A DNA stretch of 64,000 nucleotides, taken from assembly GCF_030658505.1 (NCBI RefSeq), contig NZ_JAUTXR010000189.1, positions 216,660 to 280,659 of the forward strand. Direction: 5' to 3'. Positions within the stretch are counted from its first letter, which is position 1. The number at the start of each line of letters is the position of its first letter. Origin of the DNA: Stenotrophomonas raiganjensis (SeqCode) (GTDB taxonomy: Bacteria > Pseudomonadota > Gammaproteobacteria > Xanthomonadales > Xanthomonadaceae). The position numbers and the translations under genes are program-made. The notes below the pieces were generated by a model. That model worked only from the letters and a program-made list of their open reading frames with translations. It did not search any database and was not told where the DNA came from. Below are positions 40,043 through 57,703 of the stretch, one piece after another.

Positions 40043-40056
40043 TTCAATCGATCCAA
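40043..40056. promoter_or_regulatory. LacI-type operator, site A (before glk)
   Basis: TTCAATCGATCCAA fits TTnnATCGATnnAA, the palindrome also found before both TonB-dependent receptors and the GH92 mannosidase. It lies 10 bases before the glk start, so bound protein would block transcription or initiation of the glk operon. Confidence 0.6.
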
Positions 40057-40066
40057 GCAGGCCAGC

Positions 40067-41089
40067 GTGACCATCGCAGCAGCGTCCCCGGTTTCCTCCG
40101 ACTCCGCCCGCGGCGGTCTTCCGCGCCACCTGGTCGTCGCCGATGTCGGCGGTACCTTCGCCCGCCTCGCGCTGGCGGAAACGCAACCCGGCCAGGCGCC
40201 ATTGCTGGGCAGCCATCGCACCTACGCCTGTGCCGAGCATCCCAGCCTGGCGGCGATCCTTGCTGATTTCACCGCTGGCCTCGGCCAGCCGGTACAGACC
40301 GCCGTGGTGGCCATCGCCGGCCTGCTCGATGGCGATGTACTGATCAATTCCAACCTGCCGTGGACGGTCTCGCTGTCAGCCACCCGCGCGCAGTCCGGGC
40401 TGCATGAGCTGCAGCTGATCAACGATTTCGAGGCGGTGGCGCTGGCCATCCCGTACCTGCAGCCGGATACCCTGGTGCCGCTGAATGGCGACGCCGATCC
40501 GGCGCAGGCCTTCCCGGCATTGGTGCTGGGCGCGGGCACCGGCCTGGGTGCGGCGCTGCGTTTTGCCGATGGCGAACGCCCGGTACTGGCCAGCGAGATC
40601 GGTCATGCCGCGCTCGGCGCCGGCAACACGCTGGAACTGCAGGTGCTGGGCAAGCTGCTGCAACGCTGGACGCACGTGGACAACGAGCGCGTGCTGTCCG
40701 GCAGTGGCTTGATGAACCTGTATCCATGCCTGTGCGAACTGCGCGGCGTCGCTCCGGTATGGAGCAGCACCGAGGCCCTGATCGGCGCTGCGCGCAGCGG
40801 TGAGGATGCGCTGGCGGTGGAAACGCTGCAGGTGTTCTGCGCTTGGCTGGGCAGCCTGGCCGGCGACGCGGCGATCGCGGTCGGCGCGCGCTCGGTGTAC
40901 CTGGCCGGCGGCATTTCCGCGCACGTGCAGGATTTCCTGGCCGATGGCCGCTTCCGTGAGCGCTTCCTCAACAAGGGCGTGCTGACCGAGGTGCTGCGCC
41001 AGGTACCGGTGTGGCGCGTGGAGCATGGCCAGCTGGGCGTGCTCGGTGCAGCGGTCTGGCACGCCGCACGGCAGCCCACGCACGACTGA
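40067..41089 (+). CDS. glk: Glucokinase
   Basis: A 340-residue cytoplasmic hexokinase-fold enzyme that makes glucose 6-phosphate. The phosphate loops are VVADVGGTFARLAL near residue 24 and LGAGTGLGAALRF near residue 157; the catalytic Asp and substrate residues are in INDFEAVA and SEIGHAALG. It lacks the ROK zinc motif, so it belongs to the proteobacterial Glk family. The start is a GTG. It heads a run with glycosylasparaginase and cutC and has a LacI-type operator just before it. Confidence 0.88.
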   Translation: MTIAAASPVSSDSARGGLPRHLVVADVGGTFARLALAETQPGQAPLLGSHRTYACAEHPSLAAILADFTAGLGQPVQTAVVAIAGLLDGDVLINSNLPWTVSLSATRAQSGLHELQLINDFEAVALAIPYLQPDTLVPLNGDADPAQAFPALVLGAGTGLGAALRFADGERPVLASEIGHAALGAGNTLELQVLGKLLQRWTHVDNERVLSGSGLMNLYPCLCELRGVAPVWSSTEALIGAARSGEDALAVETLQVFCAWLGSLAGDAAIAVGARSVYLAGGISAHVQDFLADGRFRERFLNKGVLTEVLRQVPVWRVEHGQLGVLGAAVWHAARQPTHD

Positions 41090-41140
41090 TCGGCACGGCC
41101 GGCATCGGGCCGGCCGTGCATTGCAGACTGGGAGGGGAAC

Positions 41141-42139
41141 ATGGTGGATCGCAGGCAGTTCCTGCAGGCCGGTGCACTGGCCGCAGGCATGGCGGCATTA
41201 CCGGGCGTGCAGGCGCGCACGCAGGGTGGGGCCAGGGTGGTCTCCACCTGGGACTTCGGCGTACCGGCCAACCAGGCCGCATGGAAGGTGCTGGCACAGG
41301 GTGGCAGCGCGCTGGATGCGGTGGAGGCGGGTGCACGCTGGGCCGAGAGCGAGCTGTGCAACCCCACCGTCGGTCATTGCGGCAACCCGGATCGCGACGG
41401 CGTGCTGAGCCTGGACGCGAGCATCATGGACGGCGATGGCCGTTGTGGCGCAGTGGCCGCGCTGGTCGACATCCTGCATCCGGTGTCGGTGGCCCGCAAA
41501 GTGATGGAGAACAGCCCGCATGTGCTGCTGGTAGGCGAGGGCGCGCAGCAGTTCGCGGTGCAGCAGGGTTTCGAGCGCAAGCACCTGCTGACGCCGCAGG
41601 CCGAAGCGGCCTGGCGCGAGTGGCTGAAGACCGAGAAGTACCAGCCGCAGATCAATGCCGAGCGCCGTGGTATTCCTGGCAACAGCGACAACCACGACAC
41701 CATCGGCATGCTGGCGCTGGACGCCAAGGGCCATCTGGCCGGTGCCTGCACCACCAGTGGGATGGCCTGGAAACTGCACGGACGCGTGGGCGACAGCCCG
41801 ATCATCGGTGCCGGCCTGTACGTCGACAACGAAGTGGGTGCGGCCACCGCCTCGGGCGTGGGTGAGGAGATGATCCGCAACGCCGCTTCGTTCCTGGTGG
41901 TCGAGCTGATGCGCCAGGGGCGCTCGCCGGCGCAGGCCTGCCGTGAAGCCATCGACCGCGTGGTGCGCAAGCGCCCCGAAGCGAGCAGGACATTGCAGGT
42001 GTGCTTCCTGGCGATGAACAAGCAGGGCGAGGTGGGCGCCTACGCGCTGCATCGCGGCTTCGTCTACGCCGTGTGCGATGCGCAGCGCCAGGATGAGCTG
42101 CGCGACTCGCCGTCGATCTATACGAGCACCCAAGCGTGA
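41141..42139 (+). CDS. Exported glycosylasparaginase (GlcNAc-Asn amidase)
   Basis: A 332-residue Ntn-hydrolase of the N4-(beta-N-acetylglucosaminyl)-L-asparaginase family, which cuts the sugar-amino-acid bond left when N-glycoproteins are degraded. The self-cleavage site and nucleophile are Thr187 in NHDTIGMLALD; the CTTSGMAWK and GAGLYVDNEVGAA motifs follow as in the human and Elizabethkingia enzymes. A twin-arginine signal (RRQFLQAGALAAG, residues 4-16) sends it folded to the periplasm. It lies 51 bases after glk with GGGAGGGG before the ATG, and overlaps cutC by four bases. Confidence 0.9.
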   Translation: MVDRRQFLQAGALAAGMAALPGVQARTQGGARVVSTWDFGVPANQAAWKVLAQGGSALDAVEAGARWAESELCNPTVGHCGNPDRDGVLSLDASIMDGDGRCGAVAALVDILHPVSVARKVMENSPHVLLVGEGAQQFAVQQGFERKHLLTPQAEAAWREWLKTEKYQPQINAERRGIPGNSDNHDTIGMLALDAKGHLAGACTTSGMAWKLHGRVGDSPIIGAGLYVDNEVGAATASGVGEEMIRNAASFLVVELMRQGRSPAQACREAIDRVVRKRPEASRTLQVCFLAMNKQGEVGAYALHRGFVYAVCDAQRQDELRDSPSIYTSTQA

Positions 42140-42870
42140 GCACGCGGCTGACCCTGGAGATCGCCAGCAACTCGCTGGCCTCGGCGTTGGCCGCACAGGC
42201 CGGCGGCGCCGATCGCATCGAACTGTTCGACAACCTGGCCGAGGGCGGCACCACGCCGTCGTTCGCCAGCATCGCGATTGCCCGCGAACGCCTGTCGATT
42301 CCGCTGTTCGTACTGGTGCGCCCGCGCCCGGGCGACTTCCACTACGACGCGCTGGAAACCGAACTGATGCTGCGTGACATCGCGCAGTGCCGCGCGCTGG
42401 GCTGCGATGGCGTGGTGATCGGTGCGCTGGATGTGCAGGGCGGCGTTGACGTGGCGTTGTGCCGTGAACTGATGCAGGCGGCCGGGCCGTTGCAGGTGAC
42501 CTTCCACCGCGCCTTTGATGCTGCCCGCGACCTGCCGGCGGCGCTGGAGCAGGTGATCGGGCTGGGCTGCCAGCGCGTGCTGACCTCGGGTGGCCAGGTC
42601 AGCGCCGAGGCCGGTGCCGATGTGCTGGCGGGCCTGGTCACCCAGGCGGCGGGGCGCATCACGGTGATGGCAGGTGCCGGATTGGCCCCGGGCAACATCG
42701 CAACCGTCGCGCGGCAGACGGGCTGTACCGAACTGCACGCGTCCGCAAAAGGCCTGCGCCGCTCGGCCATGCAGTTCCAGAACCCGGCCCTGCGCGGCTT
42801 GGACCCGACCTGGAGCCAGACCGCCACCGCCACCGTGGCCGCGCTGCGGCAAGCGCTGGAGGACGCGTAG
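42136..42870 (+). CDS. cutC: CutC-family protein
   Basis: A 244-residue TIM-barrel protein of the CutC family. Typical motifs are LEIASNSLASALAAQAGGAD split near the N-terminus, LFVLVRPRPGDFHY, and TFHRAFDAARD. The name comes from a proposed role in copper homeostasis, for which support in bacteria is weak. Its GTG start overlaps the glycosylasparaginase stop (GTGA), and the operon carries a sugar-type operator, so a role in N-glycan sugar breakdown is more likely here. It is 3.5 kb from the copA genes and not linked to them. Exact reaction unknown. Confidence 0.85.
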   Translation: MSTRLTLEIASNSLASALAAQAGGADRIELFDNLAEGGTTPSFASIAIARERLSIPLFVLVRPRPGDFHYDALETELMLRDIAQCRALGCDGVVIGALDVQGGVDVALCRELMQAAGPLQVTFHRAFDAARDLPAALEQVIGLGCQRVLTSGGQVSAEAGADVLAGLVTQAAGRITVMAGAGLAPGNIATVARQTGCTELHASAKGLRRSAMQFQNPALRGLDPTWSQTATATVAALRQALEDA

Positions 42871-42885
42871 TAACCCGCTTCTTCC

Positions 42886-42955
42886 GTAGAGCCGAGCCCG
42901 CGCTCGGCTGCTCTTGGCGACGAACAACAGCAGCCGAGCGCAGGTTCGGCGCTAC
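42886..42955. repeat. Inverted pair of GTAG (SMAG-type) palindromes
   Basis: GTAGAGCCGAG-CCCG-CGCTCGGCT at 42886-42909 and an inverse copy ending in GCTAC at 42932-42955, 22 bases apart. Same class as the pair at 21170. It follows cutC and probably bounds the glk-cutC transcript. The rest of the gap to 43279 holds an operator (43160) and nothing else I can see. Confidence 0.8.
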
Positions 42956-43159
42956 AACGATCCGCTGCGGCCGCACGCAACTACGCGGACAAGACCGTTC
43001 CGCGCGCGATTGTCGTGATCGTGTCACTGACGCGTGCGCCGTTCTCTCAGCGATGTTTCGCAACCCTTTGATTGTTCTGGATACTGGCGGCCGCTAGCGG
43101 CATTCCGCGGGCTGTTGCTGCGTCGCCGCATGCCGGGCGTGGTTCAGCTGTGCTTTAGT

Positions 43160-43173
43160 TTGGATCGATCCAC
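43160..43173. promoter_or_regulatory. LacI-type operator, site B (before TonB-dependent receptor)
   Basis: TTGGATCGATCCAC contains the perfect 12-mer palindrome TGGATCGATCCA and fits TTnnATCGATnnA. It lies 106 bases before the receptor start, a usual position for an operator overlapping the promoter. Confidence 0.6.
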
Positions 43174-43279
43174 AGGGGAGGGCGCCGCGACGGTCCTGAA
43201 CCGGCCCAGGCGCCCGGATCAGCCGTAGTGCCGTGCCACCACCCGCCCGTGCGTCCACACTTTCGAAGAGCAACCACCC

Positions 43280-46237
43280 ATGGCTCAGATCGTCCGCAAG
43301 CGCCGTCACCTGCTGTCCCAGGCCCTGGTCCTGGCCCTGTTGCCCCTGGCTGCCAGTGCGCAGGAGGCGGTCACGTCGTCCACCAAGGATCTCGACGCGG
43401 TCACCGTTACCGGCTCGCGCATCAAGCGCGCCTCCGTCGAAGGCCCGGCACCGGTCAACGTAATCACCGCCGCGCAGATCCAGAAGGAAGGCTTCGTCAG
43501 CGTGTATGACGCGCTGAAGACGCTGACCGAAGCGACCGGCACTGTCGAAGCTGCCTCGCAGTGGGGCTCGCATACGCCCAATGCCAGTGGCCTGAACCTG
43601 CGCGGCATGGGCCCGAACCGCTCGCTGCTGCTGGTCAACGGCCGTCGCGTGGCCGATTACCCGCTGCCGTATGGCGGCGAAACCAACTTCTCCAACTACG
43701 GCAACATTCCGGCCGCGGCGGTGGAGCGCATCGAAGTACTGACCGGCGGCGCCTCGGCCATCTATGGTTCGGACGCGATCGCCGGCGTGGTCAACGTCAT
43801 CCTGAAGACGAACTACGACGGCGACGAAGTGCGCGTCCGTGGTGGTACCTCCACCGAGGGCGGGCGCGATACCTGGGACCTCTCGTGGGCCGGTGGCAAG
43901 ACCGGCGACAACTGGAGCGTGACCTACGCGCTGCAGTACACCAAGCGCGACCCGTTGTTCGGCCGTGACCGCCCGCAGATGGACGACGCCGATGATGCAC
44001 CGTACCCGTCCTGGAACATGGAACAACGCAAGGTTGGCTTCCGTCCCACCGCCGGCCTGGCGCTGATCGATCCGACCACCGGCCAGCGACTGGCGCCGCC
44101 CACCGGCACCTGCGAGAAGTTCGATGGCGAGTACTACACCGCAGATCGATTGGTCTACAACTACGCCGCCAACACCATCACCAACACCGGCCGCCTCTGC
44201 GGCATGAGTGCGGACTATGCCAACTGGCTGCTTACGGGCGGTGCCGAGAACGTGTCCGGCAACCTGTATGCCACCTTCGACTTCAGCAATGACCTGCAGG
44301 CCTGGACCAACCTGGCCGTCTACCGCTCCGAAGCGATCTGGGGCACCAATCCGCCGAGCGTGTCGCTGATCGACGACGACAACGGCTACTACTGGGACGC
44401 CAACCGCAACCGCCCGATCCTGGGCGTGCGCCAGTTCACGCCGAACGAAGTCGGCGGCCTGGATACGCTGCGCAACACCAACCGCGAGCTGTCCTGGGAC
44501 TGGAGCGCGGGCCTGCGTGGCCGTCTCGCTGACCGCTTCGACTGGAGCGCCACAGTGGGGCGTTCCTACTACCGCGTTGAAGAACGGCAGAACGTGGTCG
44601 ACAAGCAGAAGTCGTATGACTACTTCCTGGGTCCGAAGCTGGGCACCACCGCCGATGGCGAGGCGATCTACGCACTGAACGAATCGCGCTGGTGGAATCC
44701 GCTGACGCCGGACCAGTATTGGCAGATGGGCACGGTGGCGAAGAACCGTGCAGCTTCGTGGGTGAACCAGGCGTCCGCGGACATCACCGGCGAACTGTTC
44801 CAGGGCTGGGCCGGCCCGATCTCGTTCGCCGCAGTGGCCGAAGTCGCGCAGCAGGGCTATCACCTCAGCCCCGATCCGCGTGCAGGTATCGACTTCGACC
44901 TGCAGAACGTCGATCGCGGTGGTGGCGAGCGCACCCGCTATTCGGCGGGCGTCGAGTTCAAGATCCCGCTGCTGGAGAGCGTGACCGCCACCGCGGCCGC
45001 GCGCTATGACCGCTATGGCAACTACAAGGCCGACAACAGCAGCGAAGCGCTGGACATCGGCAGCCAGAAGGAAACCACCTGGAACGTCGGCCTGGAATGG
45101 CGCCCGGTGGAATCGCTGCTGGTGCGCGGCTCGTATGCCACCAGTTTCCATGCGCCGGACATGCACTACCTGCTGGGCCAGCCGAGCAGCTCCGAAGTGC
45201 AGACCTATGACCGCCTGCGCTGCATCCAGAGTGGTGCCTACCTGGTCAACAACTGCGGCGTGGGCAACACCGATGTCTGGTACACGTTCGATGTGAACCG
45301 CCGTGGCACGCCGTTGCTGCGCTCGGAAACCGGTGATTCGTGGACGGTCGGCTTCGTCTGGGACGTGCTGCCGAACCTGTCGGTCAGCGCCGACTACTGG
45401 GCGATCAAGCTGGAAGACATGATCGTCGACGTCGGCGCCGACGAGGTGCTGGCCAGCGAAGCGGGCTGCCTGACCGGCAAGAACATGGACGGTACGCCGT
45501 GGGCCAATCCGGCCGGTGGCGAGTACTGCGCCGGCATCCTGGCCCGCGTGAACCGTGACAGCAACGGCCGCTTGGTGTCGATCGAGCGCGGACCGTTCAA
45601 CCTGGCAAGCCGCGAAGTGCGCGGTATCGATCTGACCGCACGCTATCGCCTGGAAACCGCGCAGTGGGGCAGCTTCCAGCTGGGCCTGAACTACACCAAC
45701 CAGATCTCCACCAAGGAACAGCGCTACGCCAACGATCCGAATCCGGAACGCCGCGACCGCGACCTGCGCAGCAAGCTGCGCGCGAGCCTGGCCTGGCAGC
45801 GCGGCAACTGGAACGCCAACGTCTATGCCGACCGCATTGGTTCGGTGCCGGGCGTGCGCTATCACTGGGGCACCGATCGCCTGGACAATCCCGGCGGTTG
45901 CCTGCCGTTCGCCGATGGCTACGTGCCCAGCGACAGCCCGTCGCTGAACTGCCTGGAACCGGCAACGCGCCCGGACGGATCGCCCAACCCGAATCCGAAC
46001 GCCGGGCAGCAGACGGCGCGCTACTACGGTCGGGTGGGGCCGTTCATCACCTGGAACTTCAACGTGGGCTACCAGGTGACCGAGCACGCCAAGGTCAATG
46101 TCTACGTCAACAACGCGTTCAACTCGGCCAGCTGGAACCACAAGGATCCCTACAAGCTGGACTACGACTTCGCCCCGACCCGGCTGCTCGGTGCGGTTGG
46201 CCGCGAGTTTGCACTGGAGTACGTGTTCACCTTCTGA
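43280..46237 (+). CDS. TonB-dependent outer-membrane receptor
   Basis: A 985-residue outer-membrane active transporter. A signal peptide (RKRRHLLSQALVLALL) ends near AASAQ; a TonB-box-like DAVTVTG precedes the plug domain (about residues 45-170, with GSRIKRASVEGPAPVNVIT and YGSDAIAGVVNVIL), then a 22-strand barrel closing in EYVFTF. It belongs to the large receptor group used for sugars and peptides in xanthomonads; no iron-specific features are seen. A LacI-type operator upstream, and the glycosylasparaginase operon next door, suggest uptake of N-glycan or glycopeptide pieces. It stands alone in its transcript. Confidence 0.88.
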   Translation: MAQIVRKRRHLLSQALVLALLPLAASAQEAVTSSTKDLDAVTVTGSRIKRASVEGPAPVNVITAAQIQKEGFVSVYDALKTLTEATGTVEAASQWGSHTPNASGLNLRGMGPNRSLLLVNGRRVADYPLPYGGETNFSNYGNIPAAAVERIEVLTGGASAIYGSDAIAGVVNVILKTNYDGDEVRVRGGTSTEGGRDTWDLSWAGGKTGDNWSVTYALQYTKRDPLFGRDRPQMDDADDAPYPSWNMEQRKVGFRPTAGLALIDPTTGQRLAPPTGTCEKFDGEYYTADRLVYNYAANTITNTGRLCGMSADYANWLLTGGAENVSGNLYATFDFSNDLQAWTNLAVYRSEAIWGTNPPSVSLIDDDNGYYWDANRNRPILGVRQFTPNEVGGLDTLRNTNRELSWDWSAGLRGRLADRFDWSATVGRSYYRVEERQNVVDKQKSYDYFLGPKLGTTADGEAIYALNESRWWNPLTPDQYWQMGTVAKNRAASWVNQASADITGELFQGWAGPISFAAVAEVAQQGYHLSPDPRAGIDFDLQNVDRGGGERTRYSAGVEFKIPLLESVTATAAARYDRYGNYKADNSSEALDIGSQKETTWNVGLEWRPVESLLVRGSYATSFHAPDMHYLLGQPSSSEVQTYDRLRCIQSGAYLVNNCGVGNTDVWYTFDVNRRGTPLLRSETGDSWTVGFVWDVLPNLSVSADYWAIKLEDMIVDVGADEVLASEAGCLTGKNMDGTPWANPAGGEYCAGILARVNRDSNGRLVSIERGPFNLASREVRGIDLTARYRLETAQWGSFQLGLNYTNQISTKEQRYANDPNPERRDRDLRSKLRASLAWQRGNWNANVYADRIGSVPGVRYHWGTDRLDNPGGCLPFADGYVPSDSPSLNCLEPATRPDGSPNPNPNAGQQTARYYGRVGPFITWNFNVGYQVTEHAKVNVYVNNAFNSASWNHKDPYKLDYDFAPTRLLGAVGREFALEYVFTF

Positions 46238-46253
46238 GGCGGGTTGCGGGCGG

Positions 46254-46278
46254 TGCGCCGGGCGGGGCCCGGCGCTAC
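46254..46278 (-). repeat. Single GTAG (SMAG-type) palindrome
   Basis: On the minus strand GTAGCGCCGGGCC-CC-GCCCGGCGCAC: a GTAG-tagged stem-loop between the receptor stop and the copA promoter. It may end the receptor transcript. Confidence 0.7.
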
Positions 46279-46301
46279 CGGCCGGACGGCGGCGGCTGGA
46301 T

Positions 46302-46332
46302 TTGACCTTCCCACGATGGCAAGGTTTAGCCT
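46302..46332 (+). promoter_or_regulatory. copA: CueR-type promoter of copA
   Basis: TTGACC (46302-46307) and TAGCCT (46327-46332) are 19 bases apart, too far for ordinary recognition and typical of MerR-family promoters. ACCTT (46305-46309) and AAGGT (46321-46325) form the inverted repeat between them, as in E. coli copA. The cueR gene is downstream at 48880. Confidence 0.88.
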
Positions 46333-46366
46333 GTCCGCGTCCAGAAGGAATCCCGGGAATCCGATC

Positions 46367-48868
<2,502 letters not shown>

Positions 48869-48879
48869 AGGAGACCTGC

Positions 48880-49335
48880 ATGAACATCGGTGAAGCCGCC
48901 AAGGCCTCGAGTGTTTCGGCGAAGATGATCCGCTACTACGAACAGATCGGCCTGATCCCTGCGGCCGATCGCACCGAATCGGGCTACCGGGCGTATTCGC
49001 AGGCGGACATCCACCGCCTGCGCTTCATCCGCCGCGCGCGCGATCTCGGCTTCCAGGTGGCCGAGATCACCGACCTGCTGGGCCTGTGGAACGACACTTC
49101 GCGGCACAGTGCCGACGTCAAGCACCTGGCTGAGCAGCACATCGCCGACTTGGAGCAACGCATCGAGCACATGCGGCAGATGGCCGACACGCTGAAGGCG
49201 TTGATCAGCTGTTGTGCGGGCGATGAGCGCCCGGAATGCCCGATCCTGCAGCGGCTGGGTGAGGATGATGAGACGCCGGTGCCGGTCGATAGCGCGAAGA
49301 CCGGCGCGGTGCGGCGACGCGCACAGAAGCATTGA
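48880..49335 (+). CDS. cueR: Copper-responsive MerR-family activator
   Basis: A 151-residue regulator with the MerR helix-turn-helix at the N-terminus (NIGEAAKASSVSAKMIRYYE), a long dimer helix and a metal loop at residues 112-120 (C-A-G-D-E-R-P-E-C), whose Cys112 and Cys120 match the Cu(I) ligands of E. coli CueR at the same numbers. Ser77, typical of sensors for +1 ions, is present too. It activates the 19-bp-spacer promoters before copA and copZ. The ATG follows AAGGAGA. A terminator lies downstream. Confidence 0.93.
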   Translation: MNIGEAAKASSVSAKMIRYYEQIGLIPAADRTESGYRAYSQADIHRLRFIRRARDLGFQVAEITDLLGLWNDTSRHSADVKHLAEQHIADLEQRIEHMRQMADTLKALISCCAGDERPECPILQRLGEDDETPVPVDSAKTGAVRRRAQKH

Positions 49336-49356
49336 ATCGATATCGCATGCACTGAA

Positions 49357-49390
49357 AAGCCCGCCCTGTGGCAGTGCACGGGGCGGGCTT
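49357..49390. terminator. Bidirectional terminator between cueR and copZ
   Basis: AAGCCCGCCC (49357-49366) pairs with GGGCGGGCTT (49381-49390) around a 14-base loop, giving a strong stem between the convergent cueR and copZ genes, with A-rich and T-rich edges on each side. Confidence 0.8.
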
Positions 49391-49413
49391 CATTGTGGAT
49401 GCAGTGCAGGGAG

Positions 49414-49608
49414 TCAGGCCGTGCGCGGCGGGAACCCGGCATCATTCACCGCGGCGAAGACCTGCTCCTGCGATGCGGTGGTCTGCACCTTGACCAGGCC
49501 GGTCGGCGGGTCGGCCACCACGCTGGCGTTGGGATCGATCTGCTGGATCGCACGGGTCACGCTGCGTGCGCAGCCGCCGCAGGTCATGCCGTCGACATGG
49601 AATTCCAT
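49414..49608 (-). CDS. copZ: Small copper chaperone, CopZ-like
   Basis: A 64-residue single heavy-metal-binding domain beginning MEFHVDGMTCGGCARSV; Cys10 and Cys13 bind Cu(I). Such proteins carry copper to CopA's N-terminal domains. The ATG at 49608 has AAGGAG five bases upstream; the frame runs on for 40 codons without support. It has its own CueR-type promoter and converges with cueR. Confidence 0.88.
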   Translation of the reverse strand: MEFHVDGMTCGGCARSVTRAIQQIDPNASVVADPPTGLVKVQTTASQEQVFAAVNDAGFPPRTA

Positions 49609-49640
49609 CTGTAGCTCCTTGGGTGCTCTTGGGTGGCGCC

Positions 49641-49671
49641 AGTGTGCACCTTCCAAGGATGGCAGGGTCAA
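49641..49671 (-). promoter_or_regulatory. CueR-type promoter of copZ
   Basis: On the minus strand TTGACC (49671-49666), a 19-base spacer holding CTTGGAAGGTG, and CACACT (49646-49641). The long spacer and ACC...GGT repeat match the copA promoter, so the same regulator should switch both. Confidence 0.78.
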
Positions 49672-49714
49672 GCGCTGGACTGAATGACGACGCACCAACG
49701 AGCACGCACCAATG

Positions 49715-49748
49715 AAAACGGCAGCCACCTGTACCAGCGCGGCTGCCG
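49715..49748 (-). terminator. Terminator of the TonB-dependent receptor gene
   Basis: On the minus strand CGGCAGCC (49748-49741) and GGCTGCCG (49726-49719) pair around a 14-base loop, followed by TTTTCATT. It lies about 70 bases beyond the receptor stop. Further GC-rich inverted repeats (GGGTTGC...GCAACCC) sit between. Confidence 0.82.
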
Positions 49749-49817
49749 TGGAGGAACGTCCCCGCCGGGGCGGGGCGTGGGTTGCGCCGGGGCTGGCCCG
49801 GGCAACCCGGTGCTGTA

Positions 49818-52800
49818 TCAGAACTTCCAGGTGGCGCCGAAGTACAGCTGGCGGCCTGCATAGGTGTTGGAGATCAGGCGGGCCTTGGTGTCATTGCCCA
49901 GGTGCACGCGCTGCTCGGACTTGGTGGCATTGATCACCGAGGCGGTCAGGGTCCAGTCCGGGGTCAGGTTGTAGGCCACGTTCAGATCCAGCTGGTCATA
50001 CGGCTCGGTGTAGACCGTCATGCCATTGTTGAGTCCGCCGACCACCTGGCCGCGACGATTGAACGAGGCGCGCGCAAGGAACTTCTCGTTCTCGTAGAAC
50101 ACCGTCACGTTGGCCTGGTTCTTGGCACTGCCGACCAGCGGCGAGGAGCCGATTTCCTGGCCGTCCAGAACAATCGAGGCCAGGTTGGTGTCGTTGTAGG
50201 TGTAGTTGGCCTGCACGCCGAAGCCGAAATCGAAGGTGTACTGGCCATACAGCTCGACGCCCTGCGACACACCATCGCGGCCATTGGCCTGGGTCTGGTA
50301 GCGCTGCACGTTCACGGCTTCACCACCGATGACCATCGGCGTATCGCGCACCACCGGCAGGGTGAAGTTGTCCACGTTCTTGCGGAACAGGCCGACGCCG
50401 GCGACCGCGCCCGGCTGGAAGTACCATTCCAGGCCCAGGTCGAACTGGGTGGCCTTGAACGGTTCCAGCTGCTTGTTGCTGCCCTGACCAAGCCAGCCTG
50501 CCGTCGAGGCACCGCCGGCAACACGGCGATCATTGACGTACTCGTCGCTGTAGTAGCTCAGTGCACCCGGTGCTGCGATGTCGGTGTAGCCGGGGCGGGC
50601 GATCACCTTCGACGCGGCACCACGCAGCACCAGCGTATCGGTAATGTCCCAGGCGATGTTGAAGCTCGGCAGCACGTCGGTGTACGTGCGGTCCACGCCG
50701 ATCAGGTCGTAGGTCTTGCTCTGCGCCAGGTCGTGCGGCAGGCGCACGAAGCCGCTCTCGCAGCTGTAGGTCGGGTAGGCCGCAGCGGCCGGATCGGTGC
50801 ACGCCATCGGCGCGCCGGATGCATTGTCCAGGAAGTAGTCGTTGAACTTCTCGATCGAGTCGGAGGACTGCGCGAACTGCTTGGTGCGCACCACGCGCAC
50901 GCCGACGTTGCCGCGCAGGCGTTCGGTGCGGAAGTTGGCCTGGAAGTAGCCCGAGTAGATCTTCTCGTTGACGTTGTAGACGAAGTCTTCCTCGGTACGG
51001 TTGTGCGAACCGCCGTAGGTCTTGTTCAGGTAGTCGATGTAGGCCGGGTAGTTGATGCCCGGGAACACGTTGGCATTGAAGCCGCCGGCAATGTTGCTGA
51101 TTGGATTGGACAGGAAGAAGCCAGGCTGCGCGTCGCCGGCAGTCGGGTCGCAGCCACTCTGGTAACGGCTGTTGTCATAGTCGGCCGGATCTCGGCCGGG
51201 GCACACCCAGTAGGTGTTGCCGGTGTTGCGGTGGACCTTGCCGTCACGGTACTTGGCGCCGAACTGGATCGAGTCCAGCCAGCCCGATTCGAACAGCTTG
51301 GTGACGTCGGCCTGGAAGTAGTTCTGCTTGACCTCGGTACGCTTCCACGACGAGTCGGTCGAGCCGGTGTCGACTTCGGCGATGCCGTTCATCAGCTGCT
51401 GCTGCAGGTCGGGCGAGAAGGTGGCCGAGGGCGTGCCGGTGAGGTCCCAGGCGCTGTACTGGTTACCCGACAGGTAATCGTTGCCGACCTTGCGGCGCGG
51501 CTTGGCCGACATACGGAAGTTCATCGACGGGCCACCTTCGGACCAGGTGCGGCCGCCGGTGAACGAGGCCTTCCACAGCGGGCTGATGTCCCAGTCGATG
51601 GTCAGGTCGGCGGTCTGCGACAGCGCCTTTTCCTTGCTGTAGCCACCGGTCAGCTGCGGTGTCGGAATCGTGCAGTCGTCCGGGCCCCAGCCGCCGGGCT
51701 TGAGGCCGGCGGCCTTGGCCTGGTCTTCGCTGCAGTAGTAGGTCTTTCCGGCCAGCTTTTCGAACTGGGCGCCGGTGACGGTGTTGCCGCTGGGGTCGAA
51801 GTCCAACCCATTGAGCAGGCGTCCGCCCGCCCAGTTTCCATCGCCGTTGAAGCGGGCCATGCTCCATTCCGGAATCTTCAGCATGTTCTGGGTGTAGTCA
51901 CCCTGCAGCTCGAAGCGGAAGTAGTTGGCGGTCATCGTGACGTTGTCGACCGGCTTGAACTGGAAGGTCAGCTGGCCGCCCTTGCGCTCGCGTTTTTCTT
52001 CCTTCACGGCGAAGTTGACCGAGGTCGGCATGAAGAAATCACTGTAGTTGCCGCCGGTCTGGTTGTTGAATCCGGACTTGCCCCACCAGTAGTGGATGCC
52101 ATCCTGCGACTGCACGTTGCCATAGGCATCGCGCGCCTTGCCGGCGCCATACCACTGGTAGTCCTCGGTGCTGGCTTCCATGGTGCGGGTGGTGCGCTTC
52201 TGCTGCGTCACGCCGACCAGCACGCCGAAGCGCTCATCCTTGCTGTGCCAGGAGTACAGGGCCGAGGCCTGCGGATCGATATCGTGGTGGGTGTCGGAAG
52301 ACGTGCCCTCGAGCGTGACGAAGCCCGAGTTGGATTCCATGTCCAGCGGACGACGGGTATGCAGGATGACCGTGCCACCGATGCCGCCTTCGTCGATGCG
52401 TGCTTCCGGCGACTTGAACAGCTCGGCGCTGGACAACATGTTCGACGGCAGCAGGGTGTAGTTGAACGAACGGGTGGCCTCGTCGTTGGTTTCCGAGGTG
52501 GCGACGTAGTTGCCGTTCAACTGGGTCAGGGTCAGGTCCGGGGCCAGGCCGCGCACACTGACGCTCTTGCCTTCGCCGCCACTGCGGGTGATGACCACGC
52601 CGGGCACGCGCTGCAGTGCGTCGGCCACGTTCTTGTCGGGGAACTTGCCGACGTCTTCGGCGGTGATCACTTCGACCACGGCGTTGGCGTCGCGCTTCTG
52701 CTCCAGGCTCTTTTCAATGGCGTAGCGATAGCCGGTGACCTGGACGCTGTCCAGGTTGGTGGCCTCCTGCGAGCCGGTCGAAGCGGCCTGCTGCGCGGCG

Positions 52801-52889
52801 GCGCCTGCCGGAATGACGGCGGCGGCCAGGGCCAGCGCGATGGCCAGCGACAATGCGTCCTGGCCGTGCGTACGTGTTGAATGCTTCAT
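49818..52889 (-). CDS. TonB-dependent outer-membrane receptor (mannoside locus)
   Basis: A 1023-residue receptor. Signal peptide to about residue 30 (SLAIALALAAAVIPAGAAAQ), TonB box region near SVQVTGYR, then the plug with FPDKNVADALQRVPGV and EGKSVSVRGLAPDLTLT, and a barrel ending in LYFGATWKF. The plug motifs are those of the TonB-dependent receptors that import oligosaccharides in xanthomonads and Caulobacter. It is divergent from the GH92 mannosidase gene, with two LacI-type operators upstream (52941 and 53063). ATG 52889 has GGGAG eight bases before it; ATG 52895 is the alternative. Predicted cargo is mannose-rich glycan. Confidence 0.9.
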   Translation of the reverse strand: MKHSTRTHGQDALSLAIALALAAAVIPAGAAAQQAASTGSQEATNLDSVQVTGYRYAIEKSLEQKRDANAVVEVITAEDVGKFPDKNVADALQRVPGVVITRSGGEGKSVSVRGLAPDLTLTQLNGNYVATSETNDEATRSFNYTLLPSNMLSSAELFKSPEARIDEGGIGGTVILHTRRPLDMESNSGFVTLEGTSSDTHHDIDPQASALYSWHSKDERFGVLVGVTQQKRTTRTMEASTEDYQWYGAGKARDAYGNVQSQDGIHYWWGKSGFNNQTGGNYSDFFMPTSVNFAVKEEKRERKGGQLTFQFKPVDNVTMTANYFRFELQGDYTQNMLKIPEWSMARFNGDGNWAGGRLLNGLDFDPSGNTVTGAQFEKLAGKTYYCSEDQAKAAGLKPGGWGPDDCTIPTPQLTGGYSKEKALSQTADLTIDWDISPLWKASFTGGRTWSEGGPSMNFRMSAKPRRKVGNDYLSGNQYSAWDLTGTPSATFSPDLQQQLMNGIAEVDTGSTDSSWKRTEVKQNYFQADVTKLFESGWLDSIQFGAKYRDGKVHRNTGNTYWVCPGRDPADYDNSRYQSGCDPTAGDAQPGFFLSNPISNIAGGFNANVFPGINYPAYIDYLNKTYGGSHNRTEEDFVYNVNEKIYSGYFQANFRTERLRGNVGVRVVRTKQFAQSSDSIEKFNDYFLDNASGAPMACTDPAAAAYPTYSCESGFVRLPHDLAQSKTYDLIGVDRTYTDVLPSFNIAWDITDTLVLRGAASKVIARPGYTDIAAPGALSYYSDEYVNDRRVAGGASTAGWLGQGSNKQLEPFKATQFDLGLEWYFQPGAVAGVGLFRKNVDNFTLPVVRDTPMVIGGEAVNVQRYQTQANGRDGVSQGVELYGQYTFDFGFGVQANYTYNDTNLASIVLDGQEIGSSPLVGSAKNQANVTVFYENEKFLARASFNRRGQVVGGLNNGMTVYTEPYDQLDLNVAYNLTPDWTLTASVINATKSEQRVHLGNDTKARLISNTYAGRQLYFGATWKF

Positions 52890-52940
52890 TCCCATCTCTC
52901 CCTCTCTCCTGGATTGATCCGGTGACGTGGCACGGACAAC

Positions 52941-52954
52941 TTGAATCGATCTAA
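52941..52954. promoter_or_regulatory. LacI-type operator, site C
   Basis: TTGAATCGATCTAA, 52 bases upstream of the receptor gene on the minus strand. Identical in all 14 bases to site E before the GH92 gene, so both genes probably answer to the same repressor. Confidence 0.75.
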
Positions 52955-53062
52955 TTTGAAGTGACATTGTCGCTATTGCCATGCAGTGGCAGTAGCACCG
53001 TGCGCGTGGCCTGGTACGTCCTGTTGCTGCTTCCCCCAACTCCCGGCCATCGCAATGTCGTC

Positions 53063-53076
53063 TTGGATCGATCTAA
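53063..53076. promoter_or_regulatory. LacI-type operator, site D
   Basis: TTGGATCGATCTAA, one base different from sites C and E, 122 bases further from the receptor gene than site C. Two operators on one promoter region could allow a repression loop. Confidence 0.7.
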
Positions 53077-53208
53077 GCGATGGGCGGGCGTTTTTTAGCA
53101 CGGGTCGCCCGCGGGCGCATGCTGCTCCGCAATATGGTACTGGCGTGGCGAAGGCATGACGGTTTGCTGAAAACAGTGAAATCGTTTTCGTGCGCAGGGG
53201 AGGGTGGG

Positions 53209-53410
53209 TCGGCAGGGCTGCGCCCTGCACCCGCGGTGTGCCGGCCGCGGGCCGGCAACAACCCAAAGCCAAAGCCAACGCCAAAGCGGCTCTGGTTTTC
53301 TGCTGGTTTGGCGGGGCGGTGTGGGCTGGCAGGACACGCCGTAAACCCGTCCTTGGGGGCTCGATGGCGCCATCCATGGCGCCAACGGTCCTGCCAGCCC
53401 ACACCGCCCC
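53209..53410. repeat. Composite hairpin repeat, copy 3 (inverse orientation)
   Basis: Perfect 23-bp arms GGGGCGGTGTGGGCTGGCAG-GAC (53313-53335) and their complement (53388-53410) enclose the core with CGTCCTTGG, GGCTCGATGG and an inner hairpin TGGCGCCATCCATGGCGCC. To the left, in mirror order, come the CTGGTTTTCT word, a variable stretch and GGCAGGGCTGCGCCCTGC near 53211. Compared with copies 1 and 2 the arms differ in sequence yet still pair, and the inner stem does too. No protein is encoded. Confidence 0.75.
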
Positions 53411-53466
53411 ACCTTTGACAGTTTCCCGGTGACGGTTGGACTGATCCTGGAACGACATGGGGTCCT

Positions 53467-53507
53467 GGGGCCAGATCCGTTTTCCCTTGGAAAACGGATC
53501 TGACCCC
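53467..53507. repeat. 19-bp-arm hairpin
   Basis: GGGGCCAGATCCGTTTTCC, loop CTT, then GGAAAACGGATCTGACCCC (53489-53507), one mismatch. It lies between composite repeats 3 and 2. It has no U-run on either side. I recall similar GGTCAGATCC hairpins in other xanthomonad gaps, which I cannot check here. Confidence 0.7.
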
Positions 53508-53535
53508 AATCGATTTCGTTATCTGACAGAGATTC

Positions 53536-53558
53536 ATCCACGCATGGCGTGGATCTAC
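53536..53558 (-). repeat. Single GTAG (SMAG-type) palindrome
   Basis: On the minus strand GTAGATCCACGC-CAT-GCGTGGAT, a GTAG-tagged stem-loop directly before composite repeat copy 2, just as one precedes copy 1 at 30162. Confidence 0.75.
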
Positions 53559-53579
53559 AGATCGCGGGACTCTGTCGAA

Positions 53580-53833
53580 GGCGGGGTGGGTCCGGTTGCG
53601 GGGGCGTGAGCCGCATGGGCCCGAGGCATGCCTCAGGCGGGTTGGGCAGGACGCCCAACCCCGGTCTTGCCGTGTGCGCAGGACAGCGCACACGAGCAAG
53701 CGGCGACCCGAGCTTACATGGACGTACTTGCAGCGTCCCCCGCAACCGGACCCACCCCGCCATCCCACGGACAGCCGGCTTTTGCTGTTGCTGTTGCTCC
53801 AGCTCGAAGCAGGTGCAGGGCGCAGCCCTGCCG
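53580..53833. repeat. Composite hairpin repeat, copy 2 with extra inner hairpins
   Basis: Perfect 25-bp arms (53580-53604 and 53737-53761) share the copy 1 sequence. Where copy 1 has the small inner hairpin, copy 2 has about 65 extra bases forming three further stem-loops: GAGGCATGCCTC, GGTTGGGC-AGGAC-GCCCAACC and GTGTGCGC-AGGACA-GCGCACAC. Then the shared GACCCGAGCTTACATGGACG follows. Behind the right arm come TGCTGTTGCTGTTGC and the GTGCAGGGCGCAGCCCTGC hairpin ending near 53833. Confidence 0.75.
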
Positions 53834-53890
53834 AACACCCTCTCTCATGCTGCGCCGCAGAATGCATTCGGCTGAACCTGCATGCTCTAC

Positions 53891-53904
53891 TTGAATCGAT
53901 CTAA
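53891..53904. promoter_or_regulatory. LacI-type operator, site E (before GH92)
   Basis: TTGAATCGATCTAA, 127 bases before the GH92 start and identical to site C. The promoter of the mannosidase operon should overlap it. Confidence 0.75.
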
Positions 53905-54031: not shown

Positions 54032-56497
54032 ATGCGCCCAGTGCCGTCCGCTCCCGCCGTCCCATCGTCCTCGCGCCCACTCACGCGCCTGGCCTGCCTG
54101 CTGGCGCTTTCGGCCATGCCGATGCTGCTGCAGGCCGCACCGGCGGCGCTGGAGCGCGAGGTCAACACCTTCATCGGCAGCAAGGACGACGGCAATACCT
54201 TCCCCGGCGCATCGGCACCGTTCGGCCTGATCCAGGTCAGCCCGATCGGCAGCCACTATTCGGGCTGGCGCTACGACGACGAGAAGATCCGCGGTTTCGG
54301 CCACTCCTTCATCTCCGGCGCCGGTTGCTGGGAGCAGGGCGGGCAGGTGTCGATCCTGCCGGTCACTGGCAGCATCGGCCCGGGCGGCGATTTCGATACC
54401 GGCAACGCCAAGCAGTTCGACCACAAGGCCTACGCCTCGAACTACACCCATGACGGCGAGATCGGCCAGGCCGGCTATTACAAGGTGCGTCTGACCAGTT
54501 ACGGCGGCATCGATGCCGAGGCGACCGCGCGCACCCGTGCCGCCGCCGAGCGCTACACCTTCAGCCAGCGCCAGGGCGAGGGCCACGTGCTGGTCAATGT
54601 TGGCCAGGCCAATGAGCGCCACTCGGTGATCGGCAGCGTAGTCGATGTGGTCGGCGACCGCGTGGTCGAGGGCAAGCTGGTGACCAAAAGTTTCTGCGGC
54701 GGCCATCAGTACACCACCTGGTTCCGGATCGAGTTCGACCGCCCGTTCAAGGCGCATGGCACCTGGGGCGAGGGCGGCGGCCTGCCGGGTGCGCGCCACA
54801 GCATGGAAGGCGAACAGAAGCCGAACGGTGCCTGGCTCAGCTTCGACCTCGCCAAGGGCCAGTCGGTAACGGCGATCAGCGCGATATCGCATGTGGATGC
54901 CGAAGGCGCGCGCATCAACCTGCGCGCGGACGGCATGCAGGGCGGGGCGCTGCTCGGCTTCGATCGCATGCGCGCGCTGTCGCAGCAGTCCTGGCGCGAG
55001 CAGCTGGGCCGCGTTCGCGTGCAGGGCGGTACCACTGATGATCGCACCGTGTTCTACAGCGCGGTCTACCACGCGCTGCTGCAGCCGATGACCGGCAACG
55101 ATGCCGATGGCCGCTACCGCGGCTATGACGACGGCATCCATCGTGCCGATGGCTGGACTTACTATGAGTACTTCTCGCTGTGGGATACCTACCGCGCGCA
55201 GAACCAGTGGCTGGCGCTGACCCGCCCGGACGTGGCGCGCGACATCGGCCGTACCCTGCTGGCGATCGACGAACAGGGCGGATGGCTGCCGCGCTGGGGC
55301 TATGCCAACTTCGAGACCAACATCATGACCGGCGATCCGGTCACCCCGTTCATGGTCGACCTGTGGCGCTTCGGTGCGCTCAACGGCCGTGAATCGCAGG
55401 CCTGGGATGCGCTGCGCCGCAATGCGTTCGGTACGCCGCCGCTGAACTCGCGCATGGCCGGACGTTCCGGCAACCCGACCTACCTGGACAAGGGCTACGT
55501 GGTCTACGACCGCGCGTTCCCGTCCAAGGGCATGGACGTTGATCCGCATCACGGTGGTTCGGCCACGCTGGAATATGCGCTGGCCGACTGTGCGCTCTCG
55601 CAGATGGCCGATGGCCTGGGTCATACGCAGGATGCGGCGACGCTGCGTGAGCGCGGGCGAAACTGGCGCAAGGTGTGGGACCCGCAGGTGCGTGATGCCG
55701 AGACCGGCTTCACCGGCTTCCCGCGCCCACGTACCGAGGATGGCCAGTGGTACACCCCGGCCGACGGTCACTACAGCCCGCGCTCGCACCACGGTTTCCA
55801 CGAGGGCACCGCGTGGCAGTACCAGTGGCTGGCACAGCAGGACGTGCCGGGCCTGGTCGAAGCGATGGACGGCCGCGAACAGGCCGGTCGCCGCCTGGAT
55901 GCGTTCTTCGCGATGGACGCGCTGCAGGCCGATCCACTCAACGCCGCCCGCAAGGCGTGGGTGGTCGGGCCGTACAGTTATTACAACCAGTTCCGCTACA
56001 ACCCGAACAACGAACCGGACCTGCACTCGCCGTGGCTGTACACGCTGATCGGCCAGCCGTGGAAGACCGCAACGGTGGTGCGTGCCGCGCAGCAGCTGTT
56101 CACCAACGCCCCCAACGGCGTGACCGGCAACGATGACCTCGGCACGATGTCGGCCTGGTACCTGTTCAGTGCCATCGGCGTGTACCCAGCGGTGCCGGGC
56201 AGTGGCCAGTTCCTGCTGCACACGCCGCGCTTCAGCAAGGTCGAGGTGGACATGGGCAATGGCCGCACCCTGCGCATCGACGCACCGGGTGCCGATGGCC
56301 GCCGCCTGCAGTACGTGCAGGGCGTGCAGGTCGATGGCCAGGCGCATGCGCCGGTGTGGCTGGACTGGAACCAGCTGCAGCAGGGCCCGCGCCTGCACTT
56401 CGCGCTGGACGCGAAGGCGCCGGAGCAGGGGTGGGGCACGGCGGTGAAGGACCTGCCGGTGTCCTGGTGCGCGGCTCCGGGCAGCCAGCTGCGCTGA
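54032..56497 (+). CDS. GH92 family alpha-mannosidase, exported
   Basis: An 821-residue calcium-dependent exo-alpha-mannosidase of family GH92, the enzymes that trim mannose from high-mannose N-glycans. Signal peptide to about residue 37 (ending LLQAAPA). The N-terminal domain opens with VNTFIGSKDDGNTFPGA-SAPFG and SHYSGWRYDD; the catalytic barrel has YYEYFSLWDTYR, NPNNEPDLHSPWLY (acid Glu region) and GNDDLGTMSAWYLFSAIG with the Asp pair acting as base, all family landmarks. AGGA precedes the ATG. The linkage preference cannot be read off. It is followed by the LacI gene 96 bases on. Confidence 0.92.
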   Translation: MRPVPSAPAVPSSSRPLTRLACLLALSAMPMLLQAAPAALEREVNTFIGSKDDGNTFPGASAPFGLIQVSPIGSHYSGWRYDDEKIRGFGHSFISGAGCWEQGGQVSILPVTGSIGPGGDFDTGNAKQFDHKAYASNYTHDGEIGQAGYYKVRLTSYGGIDAEATARTRAAAERYTFSQRQGEGHVLVNVGQANERHSVIGSVVDVVGDRVVEGKLVTKSFCGGHQYTTWFRIEFDRPFKAHGTWGEGGGLPGARHSMEGEQKPNGAWLSFDLAKGQSVTAISAISHVDAEGARINLRADGMQGGALLGFDRMRALSQQSWREQLGRVRVQGGTTDDRTVFYSAVYHALLQPMTGNDADGRYRGYDDGIHRADGWTYYEYFSLWDTYRAQNQWLALTRPDVARDIGRTLLAIDEQGGWLPRWGYANFETNIMTGDPVTPFMVDLWRFGALNGRESQAWDALRRNAFGTPPLNSRMAGRSGNPTYLDKGYVVYDRAFPSKGMDVDPHHGGSATLEYALADCALSQMADGLGHTQDAATLRERGRNWRKVWDPQVRDAETGFTGFPRPRTEDGQWYTPADGHYSPRSHHGFHEGTAWQYQWLAQQDVPGLVEAMDGREQAGRRLDAFFAMDALQADPLNAARKAWVVGPYSYYNQFRYNPNNEPDLHSPWLYTLIGQPWKTATVVRAAQQLFTNAPNGVTGNDDLGTMSAWYLFSAIGVYPAVPGSGQFLLHTPRFSKVEVDMGNGRTLRIDAPGADGRRLQYVQGVQVDGQAHAPVWLDWNQLQQGPRLHFALDAKAPEQGWGTAVKDLPVSWCAAPGSQLR

Positions 56498-56593: not shown

Positions 56594-57643
56594 ATGAACG
56601 ACAACGGCAGCAGTCCCAGCAAGCGCGCCGGCAAGGCGGTGACGGTGACCGACATCGCGCGTGCCATCGGCGTGTCACGGGCGACCGTGTCGCTGGTGCT
56701 GCGCGGCAGCCCGCTGGTCAACGTCGATACCCGCGCCAAGGTCGAGGCCGAGCTGCGCCGGCAGCGCTACGTCTACAACCGCGCGGCCGCCAACCTGCGC
56801 CGTCGTACCTCGTCGAGCATCGCGCTGGTGATCAACGACCTGTCCAATCCGTTCTTCGCCGAATTCGCTTCGGGCGTGGACGAGGCGCTGGGTGGGCGGG
56901 GTTACGTGACCCTGCTCGGTAGCACCGGCGAATCGCCGGAGCGGCAGCAGGCGGTGCTGTCCACGCTGATGGAGCACACCCCGGCCGGCCTGATCCTGTC
57001 GCCGGCCGAGGGCAGCGACACCGCGCAGCTGCGGCAGGCGTTGGGCGCCAATGCCAATGTGCTGCTGTTCAACCGCGAACTGGAAGGGGCCGACTGGGAC
57101 TTCCTGACCCTGGACAACCAGCACGGCGCCTACCTTGCCACGCGCCACCTGATCGAACGCGGCCATCGCCAGATCGCCTTCTTCGGCGGTCACGCCGCGT
57201 CGAGCTCATGCCACCAGCGCCGCGCTGGCTTCCAGCAGGCACTGGCCGAGGCCGGTCTGCCGCTGCCGCCGGGCTGGATGATCGAGTCGGCACCGAACCG
57301 CCTGGAAGCCGCTGCGCGCACCGATGAGCTGTTTGCCGATGGCCATCGTCCGAGTGCGGCGGTCTGCTACAACGACACCGTCGCGCTGGGCCTGATGCTG
57401 GGCTTGAACTCGCGTGGCATCCGTCCGGGTGGCGACTTCGCCGTTACCGGTTTCGACGATATTTCCGAGGCGTCGGTCGCGGTGCCACCGCTGACCACGC
57501 TCACCGCCGACCCGCGCGAGCGCGGTCGCCAGGCTGCGGCGCTGCTGCTGCAGCGGCTGGACGAACCGGACGCACCACCACGGCGCACGGTCGCGCCGGT
57601 ACAGCTGCGCATCCGCGAAAGCAGTGCCGCGCGACCGAACTGA
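56594..57643 (+). CDS. LacI-family transcriptional regulator of the mannoside locus
   Basis: A 349-residue repressor. The helix-turn-helix VTVTDIARAIGVSRATVSLVLRG (residues about 19-41) is followed by the hinge helix and a periplasmic-binding-type sugar domain (ALVINDLSNPFFAEFASGV, ILSPAEGSD, AVTGFDDISEAS). It lies inside the locus between GH92 and the transporter, so it probably binds the nearby TTnnATCGATnnAA sites and is released by a mannose-derived sugar. Both the sites and the ligand are inferred. Confidence 0.85.
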   Translation: MNDNGSSPSKRAGKAVTVTDIARAIGVSRATVSLVLRGSPLVNVDTRAKVEAELRRQRYVYNRAAANLRRRTSSSIALVINDLSNPFFAEFASGVDEALGGRGYVTLLGSTGESPERQQAVLSTLMEHTPAGLILSPAEGSDTAQLRQALGANANVLLFNRELEGADWDFLTLDNQHGAYLATRHLIERGHRQIAFFGGHAASSSCHQRRAGFQQALAEAGLPLPPGWMIESAPNRLEAAARTDELFADGHRPSAAVCYNDTVALGLMLGLNSRGIRPGGDFAVTGFDDISEASVAVPPLTTLTADPRERGRQAAALLLQRLDEPDAPPRRTVAPVQLRIRESSAARPN

Positions 57644-57703
57644 TTGCTTCCGTACACCCCTTCCACGCAACAACGACCTTCCGCGCATCGAGGCGCGTAC
57701 CGC

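Follow-up and report, generated by a model that had tools for sequence, protein, structure and literature searches.

Does one regulator govern how Stenotrophomonas raiganjensis takes up and consumes mannose-rich sugar chains, and if so, by what sequence does it recognize its genes? The question is raised by a stretch of 64,000 nucleotides (contig NZ_JAUTXR010000189.1, positions 216,660 to 280,659; hereafter the window, from whose first letter all positions are counted), in which the same palindrome stands before several genes of sugar uptake and breakdown, among them the row that holds a gene for a LacI-family regulator at 56594. I propose that this protein has the palindrome, wTTrRATCGATYyAAw, as its operator, that it thereby controls at least six units for the use of mannose-rich glycans, and that the control is relieved by a mannose-type sugar. 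Judged from sequence comparison, I put the probability of this reading at about 0.86.

Candidate operator sites in the window

An earlier note on this DNA had picked out five such sites in promoter regions. All five are found (pattern TTNNATCGATNNAA, at most one mismatch), each in non-coding DNA upstream of a gene when gene starts are chosen from the sequence and from homologs. The first, TTCAATCGATCCAA (40043..40056), lies 10 nucleotides (nt) before the GTG start of glk (40067). The second, TTGGATCGATCCAC (43160..43173), lies 106 nt before the ATG (43280) of receptor 1, the first of two TonB-dependent receptors, and is indeed off consensus in its last base, a C. Receptor 2 is preceded by a pair, the proximal TTGAATCGATCTAA (52941..52954) about 50 nt and TTGGATCGATCTAA (53063..53076) about 170 nt before its start. 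Finally, TTGAATCGATCTAA occurs again (53891..53904) 127 nt before the ATG (54032) of a GH92 alpha-mannosidase gene, at the head of the gene row that contains lacI. The sites are palindromic, have a central CG and lie near sugar genes, as do operators of the LacI/GalR family.

Such sites are rare. With one mismatch allowed, TTNNATCGATNNAA matches the window 6 times, as against 0.28 expected from shuffles, and 0 of 100 shuffled windows give 6 matches. The whole genome (4.71 Mb) contains 5 exact matches where base composition predicts 0.31 and the reversed pattern gives 1; 4 of the 5 are in this cluster, and the fifth, outside it, differs in its inner bases (TTTCATCGATGAAA). At one mismatch the genome contains 35 matches to the motif, as against 6 to its reversed control. 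A matrix trained on 66 sites at 20 loci of other species gives the same five sites the five highest scores of the window (33.0, 32.4, 22.1, 21.6 and 20.2), followed by 15.7 (in pfkB) and 12.8, a ranking that is no independent test, since the training set includes orthologs of the window's promoters.

The sixth match in the window (59054-59067) is within the pfkB gene, and I reject it as a regulatory site. It falls in the codons of the kinase's conserved start (FGEILIDL in the window's protein), and its recurrence in many relatives can be explained by the coding conservation of that stretch.

The proposed regulon beyond the window

With the inner bases set to purine and pyrimidine (TTNRATCGATYNAA), 12 places in the genome match within one mismatch. 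Eight of these are in or before genes of the regulon (one being the probably coding pfkB site) and four are elsewhere. Two of the eight are on other contigs, C182 and C49, shortly upstream of genes, and both genes encode GH92 alpha-mannosidases. Pfam detects three GH92 genes in the whole genome, and 3/3 carry the site. By their sites, these two GH92 genes are predicted to be members of the regulon too. The idea that two loci share an operator and form one regulon is supported as to the sharing and was too narrow as to the extent: the regulon spans at least three loci. The matches on C45, C101, C109 and C188 show no glycan link and are counted as misses (the neighbours of the C45 match were not examined); by Pfam, open reading frames (ORFs) near the C101 match are phage integrases, and that at C188 belongs to no family.

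An exact site, TTGGATCGATCCAA, occurs in two genomes of the same genus (L129, 5018-5031; L130, 5056-5069). In L129 it stands at the start of a gene whose product is a TIM barrel (AP_endonuc_2) resembling sugar isomerases and has a TAT-like leader; the letters around the L130 site look like those of L129, and the Pfam identity comes from the L129 gene alone. This gene is a candidate for an extra member of the regulon.

Conservation of the sites in relatives

Two checks proposed by the earlier note were made, on whether the motif is as frequent within genes as ahead of glycan genes and on whether relatives lack the sites, and neither went against the note. With the LacI protein as query, loci were collected from named organisms (the top 80 of 334, almost all bearing titles of Xanthomonadales genera), and the proteins of the window were mapped on these and on 33 further stretches. 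Sites were sought from -350 to +20 around each start, with at most one mismatch unless stated otherwise.

Stretches of the same length inside GH92 genes contain the motif in 0/70 cases for the main gene, the one in the window, and 0/32 for the C49 type (two of the 32 being duplicates), as against 53/70 and 32/32 of the upstream stretches. The site precedes receptor 2 in 58/58 usable stretches, 50 times exactly, and receptor 1 in 21/21, some of them duplicates. When receptor-2 promoters are aligned (n = 21, some cut short), the two sites are conserved islands in diverged surroundings. By a stricter rule, the pair is present in 44/55 loci, a single site in 10 and none in 1. A fixed looping geometry for the pair is unsupported: the spacing ranges from 74 to 128 bp (no formal phasing test was made). 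Upstream of the pair, at 53117-53136, is a block of 20 bases close to GCATGCTGCTGCGCAATATG (one mismatch in the window); within two mismatches it recurs in 41/80 LacI loci, shuffled patterns (3 shuffles, 20 loci) giving at most 4.

The GH92 genes outside the window have kept their sites as well. For the C182 type, a site is present in 51/51 orthologs examined (of 55 found), and in 31 of them, as in this genome, 6 nt separate its end from the start codon; its letters vary around a fixed or nearly fixed core. The C49 type has a site in 30/30 distinct loci, with the core of one site altered to ATCGAA and kept in that form, and in 15/18 further ones. In one genome (G009) a further TonB receptor gene is divergent from the C49-type GH92 gene, with sites in between. 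Before glk the site is present in 34/50 upstream stretches, exact in 29 of the 30 closest.

Inside the rows, genes have almost no sites before them, even at two mismatches: 0/68 for the porter, 0/73 for the kinase, 0/68 for the isomerase, 1/54 for cutC and 2/47 for glycosylasparaginase. The GH2 gene at the end of the row has a one-mismatch site in 10/56 relatives (two of them duplicates) and in none of the S. maltophilia loci.

The LacI protein as probable reader of the operator

The protein encoded at 56594..57643 (+ strand) has the make-up of the LacI/GalR family, an N-terminal LacI helix-turn-helix (PF00356, 37.3 bits over 27) and a periplasmic-binding-protein-like sensor domain (PF13377, 124.5 over 26.5), with near full-length matches to the structures of RbsR, PurR and LacI. 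The earlier note named it as the candidate regulator, and three lines of evidence bear this out.

The first is co-occurrence. Among 198 genomes of the family, exact TTNRATCGATYNAA is present in 63/77 of those with an ortholog of this LacI and in 20/121 of those without; the former contain 153 sites and the latter 23, and two or more sites are found in 44 and 2 genomes, respectively. The backward pattern has 5 matches in all 198. Because part of this correlation is phylogenetic, the comparison was repeated within genera: in the 11 genera that have both states, sites occur in 36/44 LacI-bearing and 8/30 LacI-less genomes (permutation within genera, p 5e-5). Of 12 genomes of the same genus as the window, the one without LacI (G007) has a single match, before a glycosyltransferase gene.

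The second is the presence of a site before lacI itself, in 11/81 upstream stretches (one mismatch), all from distant relatives, Lysobacter, Luteimonas and Dyella among them, both with and without a GH92 gene ahead. The third is the recognition helix, VSRATVSLVLR(G/E)S, which is the same in 22 sequences, the window's included, except for one residue in L099. From the three together, the 56594 protein is the best candidate for the reader of the operator.

In Dyella and Rhodanobacter (L098, L101 and L103), pairs of ATCGTT-centred sites lie upstream of lacI. They are possibly a shifted operator of that lineage.

Genes that would be controlled

Gene calls were checked with Pfam, NCBIfam and comparison to solved structures, and were confirmed. 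The first unit (all + strand) begins with glk (40067..41089), a glucokinase-family sugar kinase (PF02685; NF009073 above cut-off), and continues with glycosylasparaginase (41141..42139; PF01112), which has a TAT-like signal and the motif HDTIG. The best solved match of the latter is N4-(beta-N-acetylglucosaminyl)-L-asparaginase (1p4k, E 1e-103), structures of asparaginase type being far behind at 1e-37. Next, cutC (42136..42870; PF03932; human CUTC, 3iwp, E 5e-56) shares its first 4 nt with the end of the glycosylasparaginase gene. Both receptors, 1 (43280..46237, +) and 2 (49818..52895, -, with its start at 52889 or 52895), have PF00593 and PF07715.

The gene row on the + strand comprises the GH92 alpha-mannosidase (54032..56497; PF07971 and PF17678, with matches to solved GH92 structures), lacI, an MFS sugar porter of the GluP/FucP kind (57644..59017; TIGR01272 and TIGR00885 above cut-off), a fructokinase-like PfkB-family kinase (59025..60020; PF00294, the nearest NCBIfam model being fructokinase, below cut-off), an isomerase or epimerase of the AGE fold that is nearest to D-mannose isomerase (60017..61243; PF07221, with NF051846 best, below cut-off), and a GH2 enzyme of beta-mannosidase type with mannosidase Ig domains (61321..63939; PF22666, PF17786 and PF17753).

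Two genes between the receptors, for a copA-type P-type ATPase (46244-48868, +) and a MerR regulator (48880-49335, +), are outside the regulon and separate its two halves in the window. Two gaps between genes contain inverted repeats. Between cutC and receptor 1 (42886-42955) is one of 31 bases that begins with GTAG, which I take to resemble the SMAG elements, repeats known from S. maltophilia. The gap from receptor 2 to GH92 (53310-53764) has three of 20 to 28 bases, and its length varies among relatives.

How the regulon might work

LacI-family members are mostly repressors. By analogy with them, the palindrome would bind a dimeric repressor, and I propose that, when no sugar is at hand, the 56594 protein, presumably a dimer, sits on the sites in the promoter regions of at least six units: glk-glycosylasparaginase-cutC; receptor 1; receptor 2; the presumed operon GH92-lacI-porter-kinase-isomerase-GH2; and the single GH92 genes on C182 and C49. 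The inducer would be a sugar set free once mannose-rich glycans have been imported, and mannose itself or a fragment that contains it is the likeliest. Upon release of the protein, uptake (two receptors and the porter), trimming (three GH92 enzymes and the GH2 enzyme) and entry into metabolism (isomerase and kinases) would rise together, the isomerase and kinase probably converting mannose to fructose and then to its phosphate.

Weighing the proposal

A number of observations weigh against this model. Consensus scans of two of the regions gave no sigma-70-like promoter, and no site is directly before lacI in the window. The conservation counts are not independent, because the loci are related and some represent the same genome twice (e.g. 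L042 and L137). The main GH92 gene has no site within one mismatch in 17/70 upstream stretches; judged by their titles all 17 are outside Stenotrophomonas, and in 15 of them (all but L083 and L095) a receptor gene lies ahead on the same strand, with the site before the receptor. Two distant C49-type genes (L268 and L269) have no site. Within two mismatches, 14/50 upstream stretches of glk and 13/20 of the more distant ones are without a site, and since the site is patchy beyond close orthologs, glk, glycosylasparaginase and cutC are firm members of the regulon only near S. maltophilia. Fourteen of the 77 LacI-bearing genomes have no exact site, and LacI orthologs were scored among only the ten best candidates per genome. 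ATCGTT-centred sites replace the motif in some distant relatives (L098, L099, L101 and L103). Lastly, the match on C109 has a good matrix score (22.7) and lies near unrelated genes, one for a kinase/TPR protein; it is either falsely positive or a site that the model does not explain.

Even if regulator and sites are as proposed, are N-glycans what the regulon is for? It might instead serve mannose and alpha-mannosides in general (fungal or plant mannan, or free mannose), with N-glycans one outlet or none. Consider which genes are most constantly marked: the receptors and GH92. The kinase, the porter and the AGE isomerase would suit free mannose, and the glycosylasparaginase unit has a site of its own only in part of the genus. 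Moreover, the genes of the window were thought to make a nearly full route for N-glycan breakdown, and this was too strong: the listed genes are confirmed, and the 16 window ORFs run include no enzyme for the chitobiose core. Nor did Pfam find a hexosaminidase, fucosidase or galactosidase among those 16 (the remaining window and the genome were not searched). Glycosylasparaginase pulls the other way. Its known use is on the bond between N-acetylglucosamine (GlcNAc) and asparagine, it shares cluster and site in the S. maltophilia group, and in several species groups it is contiguous with the receptor-GH92-lacI cluster. A GH2 enzyme of beta-mannosidase type also suits the core of N-glycans. I consider the broader role a real possibility, with the odds somewhat against it.

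A second alternative is that the palindrome is read by another LacI-family protein. Operators of the family resemble one another, and in one other genus (g15) 7 of 8 sampled genomes have a second close copy of this LacI, about 60-62% identical. S. maltophilia has NagI, a LacI-family repressor of GlcNAc genes (PMC13055268). Against such a reader stand the tightness with which the motif accompanies orthologs of the 56594 protein, also within mixed genera, and the sites before lacI in some relatives, and I find this alternative improbable.

Might the LacI protein activate rather than repress? The sites of receptor 1 and of the GH92 row are more than 100 nt before the start codons, where an activator could act. 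The sites of the C182 GH92 gene and of glk speak for repression: they stop 6 and 10 nt short of the start codons, so that a bound protein would block transcription there. Most members of the family are repressors (PMC13055268), and activation seems very unlikely.

Chance, or an artefact of sequence composition, might be suggested by the matches near unrelated genes (C101, C109 and C188), and I reject it as an explanation of negligible likelihood, the window shuffles and genome-wide reversed controls being far below what is observed and co-occurrence and the counts of conserved upstream sites opposing it too.

One cluster or two

The regulon was first seen as two loci. In the window they are separate, with copA and merR in between, and in several relatives they are contiguous. 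In loci of the S. rhizophila type (L057-L064, L066-L069, L073 and L074), glk-glycosylasparaginase-cutC adjoins receptor 2-GH92-lacI, and two Pseudoxanthomonas loci (L075 and L076) have the continuous order glk-glycosylasparaginase-cutC-receptor 1-GH92-lacI-porter-kinase-isomerase. I therefore regard the two parts as a single cluster into which, in the window, copA and merR are inserted. A whole cluster of Stenotrophomonas type, with a LacI 83% identical, is also found in a record titled Bacillus subtilis SK7B5 (L067), probably mislabelled or contaminated.

CutC and glk

What is CutC doing in such a cluster? It is named a copper homeostasis protein, and its biochemical role is not known to be settled; the copper phenotype of cutC in E. 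coli is reportedly explained by the small RNA MicL. That RNA is made from the E. coli cutC region (PMC8216713). In Xanthomonas, the nix N-glycan region includes cutC (PMC6718126). The results of a literature search showed no role of the protein in glycan use.

The gene adjoins glycosylasparaginase on the same strand in 30/30 loci examined (the best 30 of 70), and glycosylasparaginase is in the stretch in 21 of the 23 named loci that have cutC. CutC is present in 66/77 LacI-bearing and 4/121 LacI-less genomes, that is, 66 of the 70 genomes with CutC have the 56594-type LacI. In L095 an exact operator precedes cutC alone. The adjacency and the co-occurrence with LacI point to a role with glycans. 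Tentatively, and with more doubt than confidence, I suggest that CutC may be an enzyme of glycoprotein glycans, induced through the operator, that acts on what glycosylasparaginase releases; its substrate would be GlcNAc-amine, GlcNAc or an asparagine-linked remnant. Against this are that the tie is one of association, that L090 and L095 have cutC and no glycosylasparaginase in the stretch, and that four genomes have CutC and no LacI. The adjoining glk may have a part as well. S. maltophilia retains residual GlcNAc kinase activity without nagK, from which an additional kinase was inferred (PMC13055268), and glk may encode that second GlcNAc kinase.

Relation to known systems

RegPrecise holds LacI regulogs of the Xanthomonadales, possibly one named ManR. 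The nix N-glycan cluster of Xanthomonas was reportedly described by Boulanger in 2014 and Dupoiron in 2015. It resembles the present system in having alpha- and beta-mannosidases and a TonB receptor, with asparaginase and cutC nearby (PMC5700972, PMC6718126), and the window too has an alpha-mannosidase, a beta-mannosidase, a glycosylasparaginase and a receptor, spread over more than one unit. The nix cluster differs in having genes for fucosidase, hexosaminidase and galactosidase, none of which turned up among the 16 ORFs run, and the available portions of the same two papers name no LacI regulator for it.

Likeness in gene make-up extends to the sux CUT locus of Xanthomonas campestris, in which the LacI/GalR-type regulator SuxR is encoded beside a TonB-dependent receptor, an inner-membrane porter and a carbohydrate-active enzyme (Blanvillain 2007, PMC1790865). 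The window, likewise, has a clustered TonB-dependent receptor, inner-membrane porter, degradative enzyme and regulator. The sux system is a single locus for sucrose (PMC1790865), unlike the several loci here with their GH92 and GH2 mannosidases. Within the genus, NagI of S. maltophilia is also a LacI-family repressor of a sugar route, differing in that it controls the nagPIBAF operon and responds to GlcNAc-6P (PMC13055268). Finally, the ManR groups are LacI-family regulators of mannose and mannosides predicted, elsewhere among bacteria, by comparative genomics (Ravcheev 2014, PMC4052901), and the main text names neither Xanthomon- nor Stenotrophomonas. LacI regulons beside TonB receptors (PMC1790865) and predicted LacI regulators for mannosides (PMC4052901) are thus known. 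A literature search found no description of this operator or of the cluster's regulator; supplementary tables might list the operator, so absence from print is not shown.

Gene control of this kind is common, and the proposed regulon is a well-conserved case of it, here for mannose-rich sugar chains. Stenotrophomonas and its kin are associated with plants or opportunistic, and they encounter glycoproteins; for their use of mannose-rich glycans there is now an operator that is precise and conserved, and one candidate for its regulator. From sequence alone six units are predicted to be regulated together, including three GH92 enzymes, and a specific pathway is suggested for CutC.

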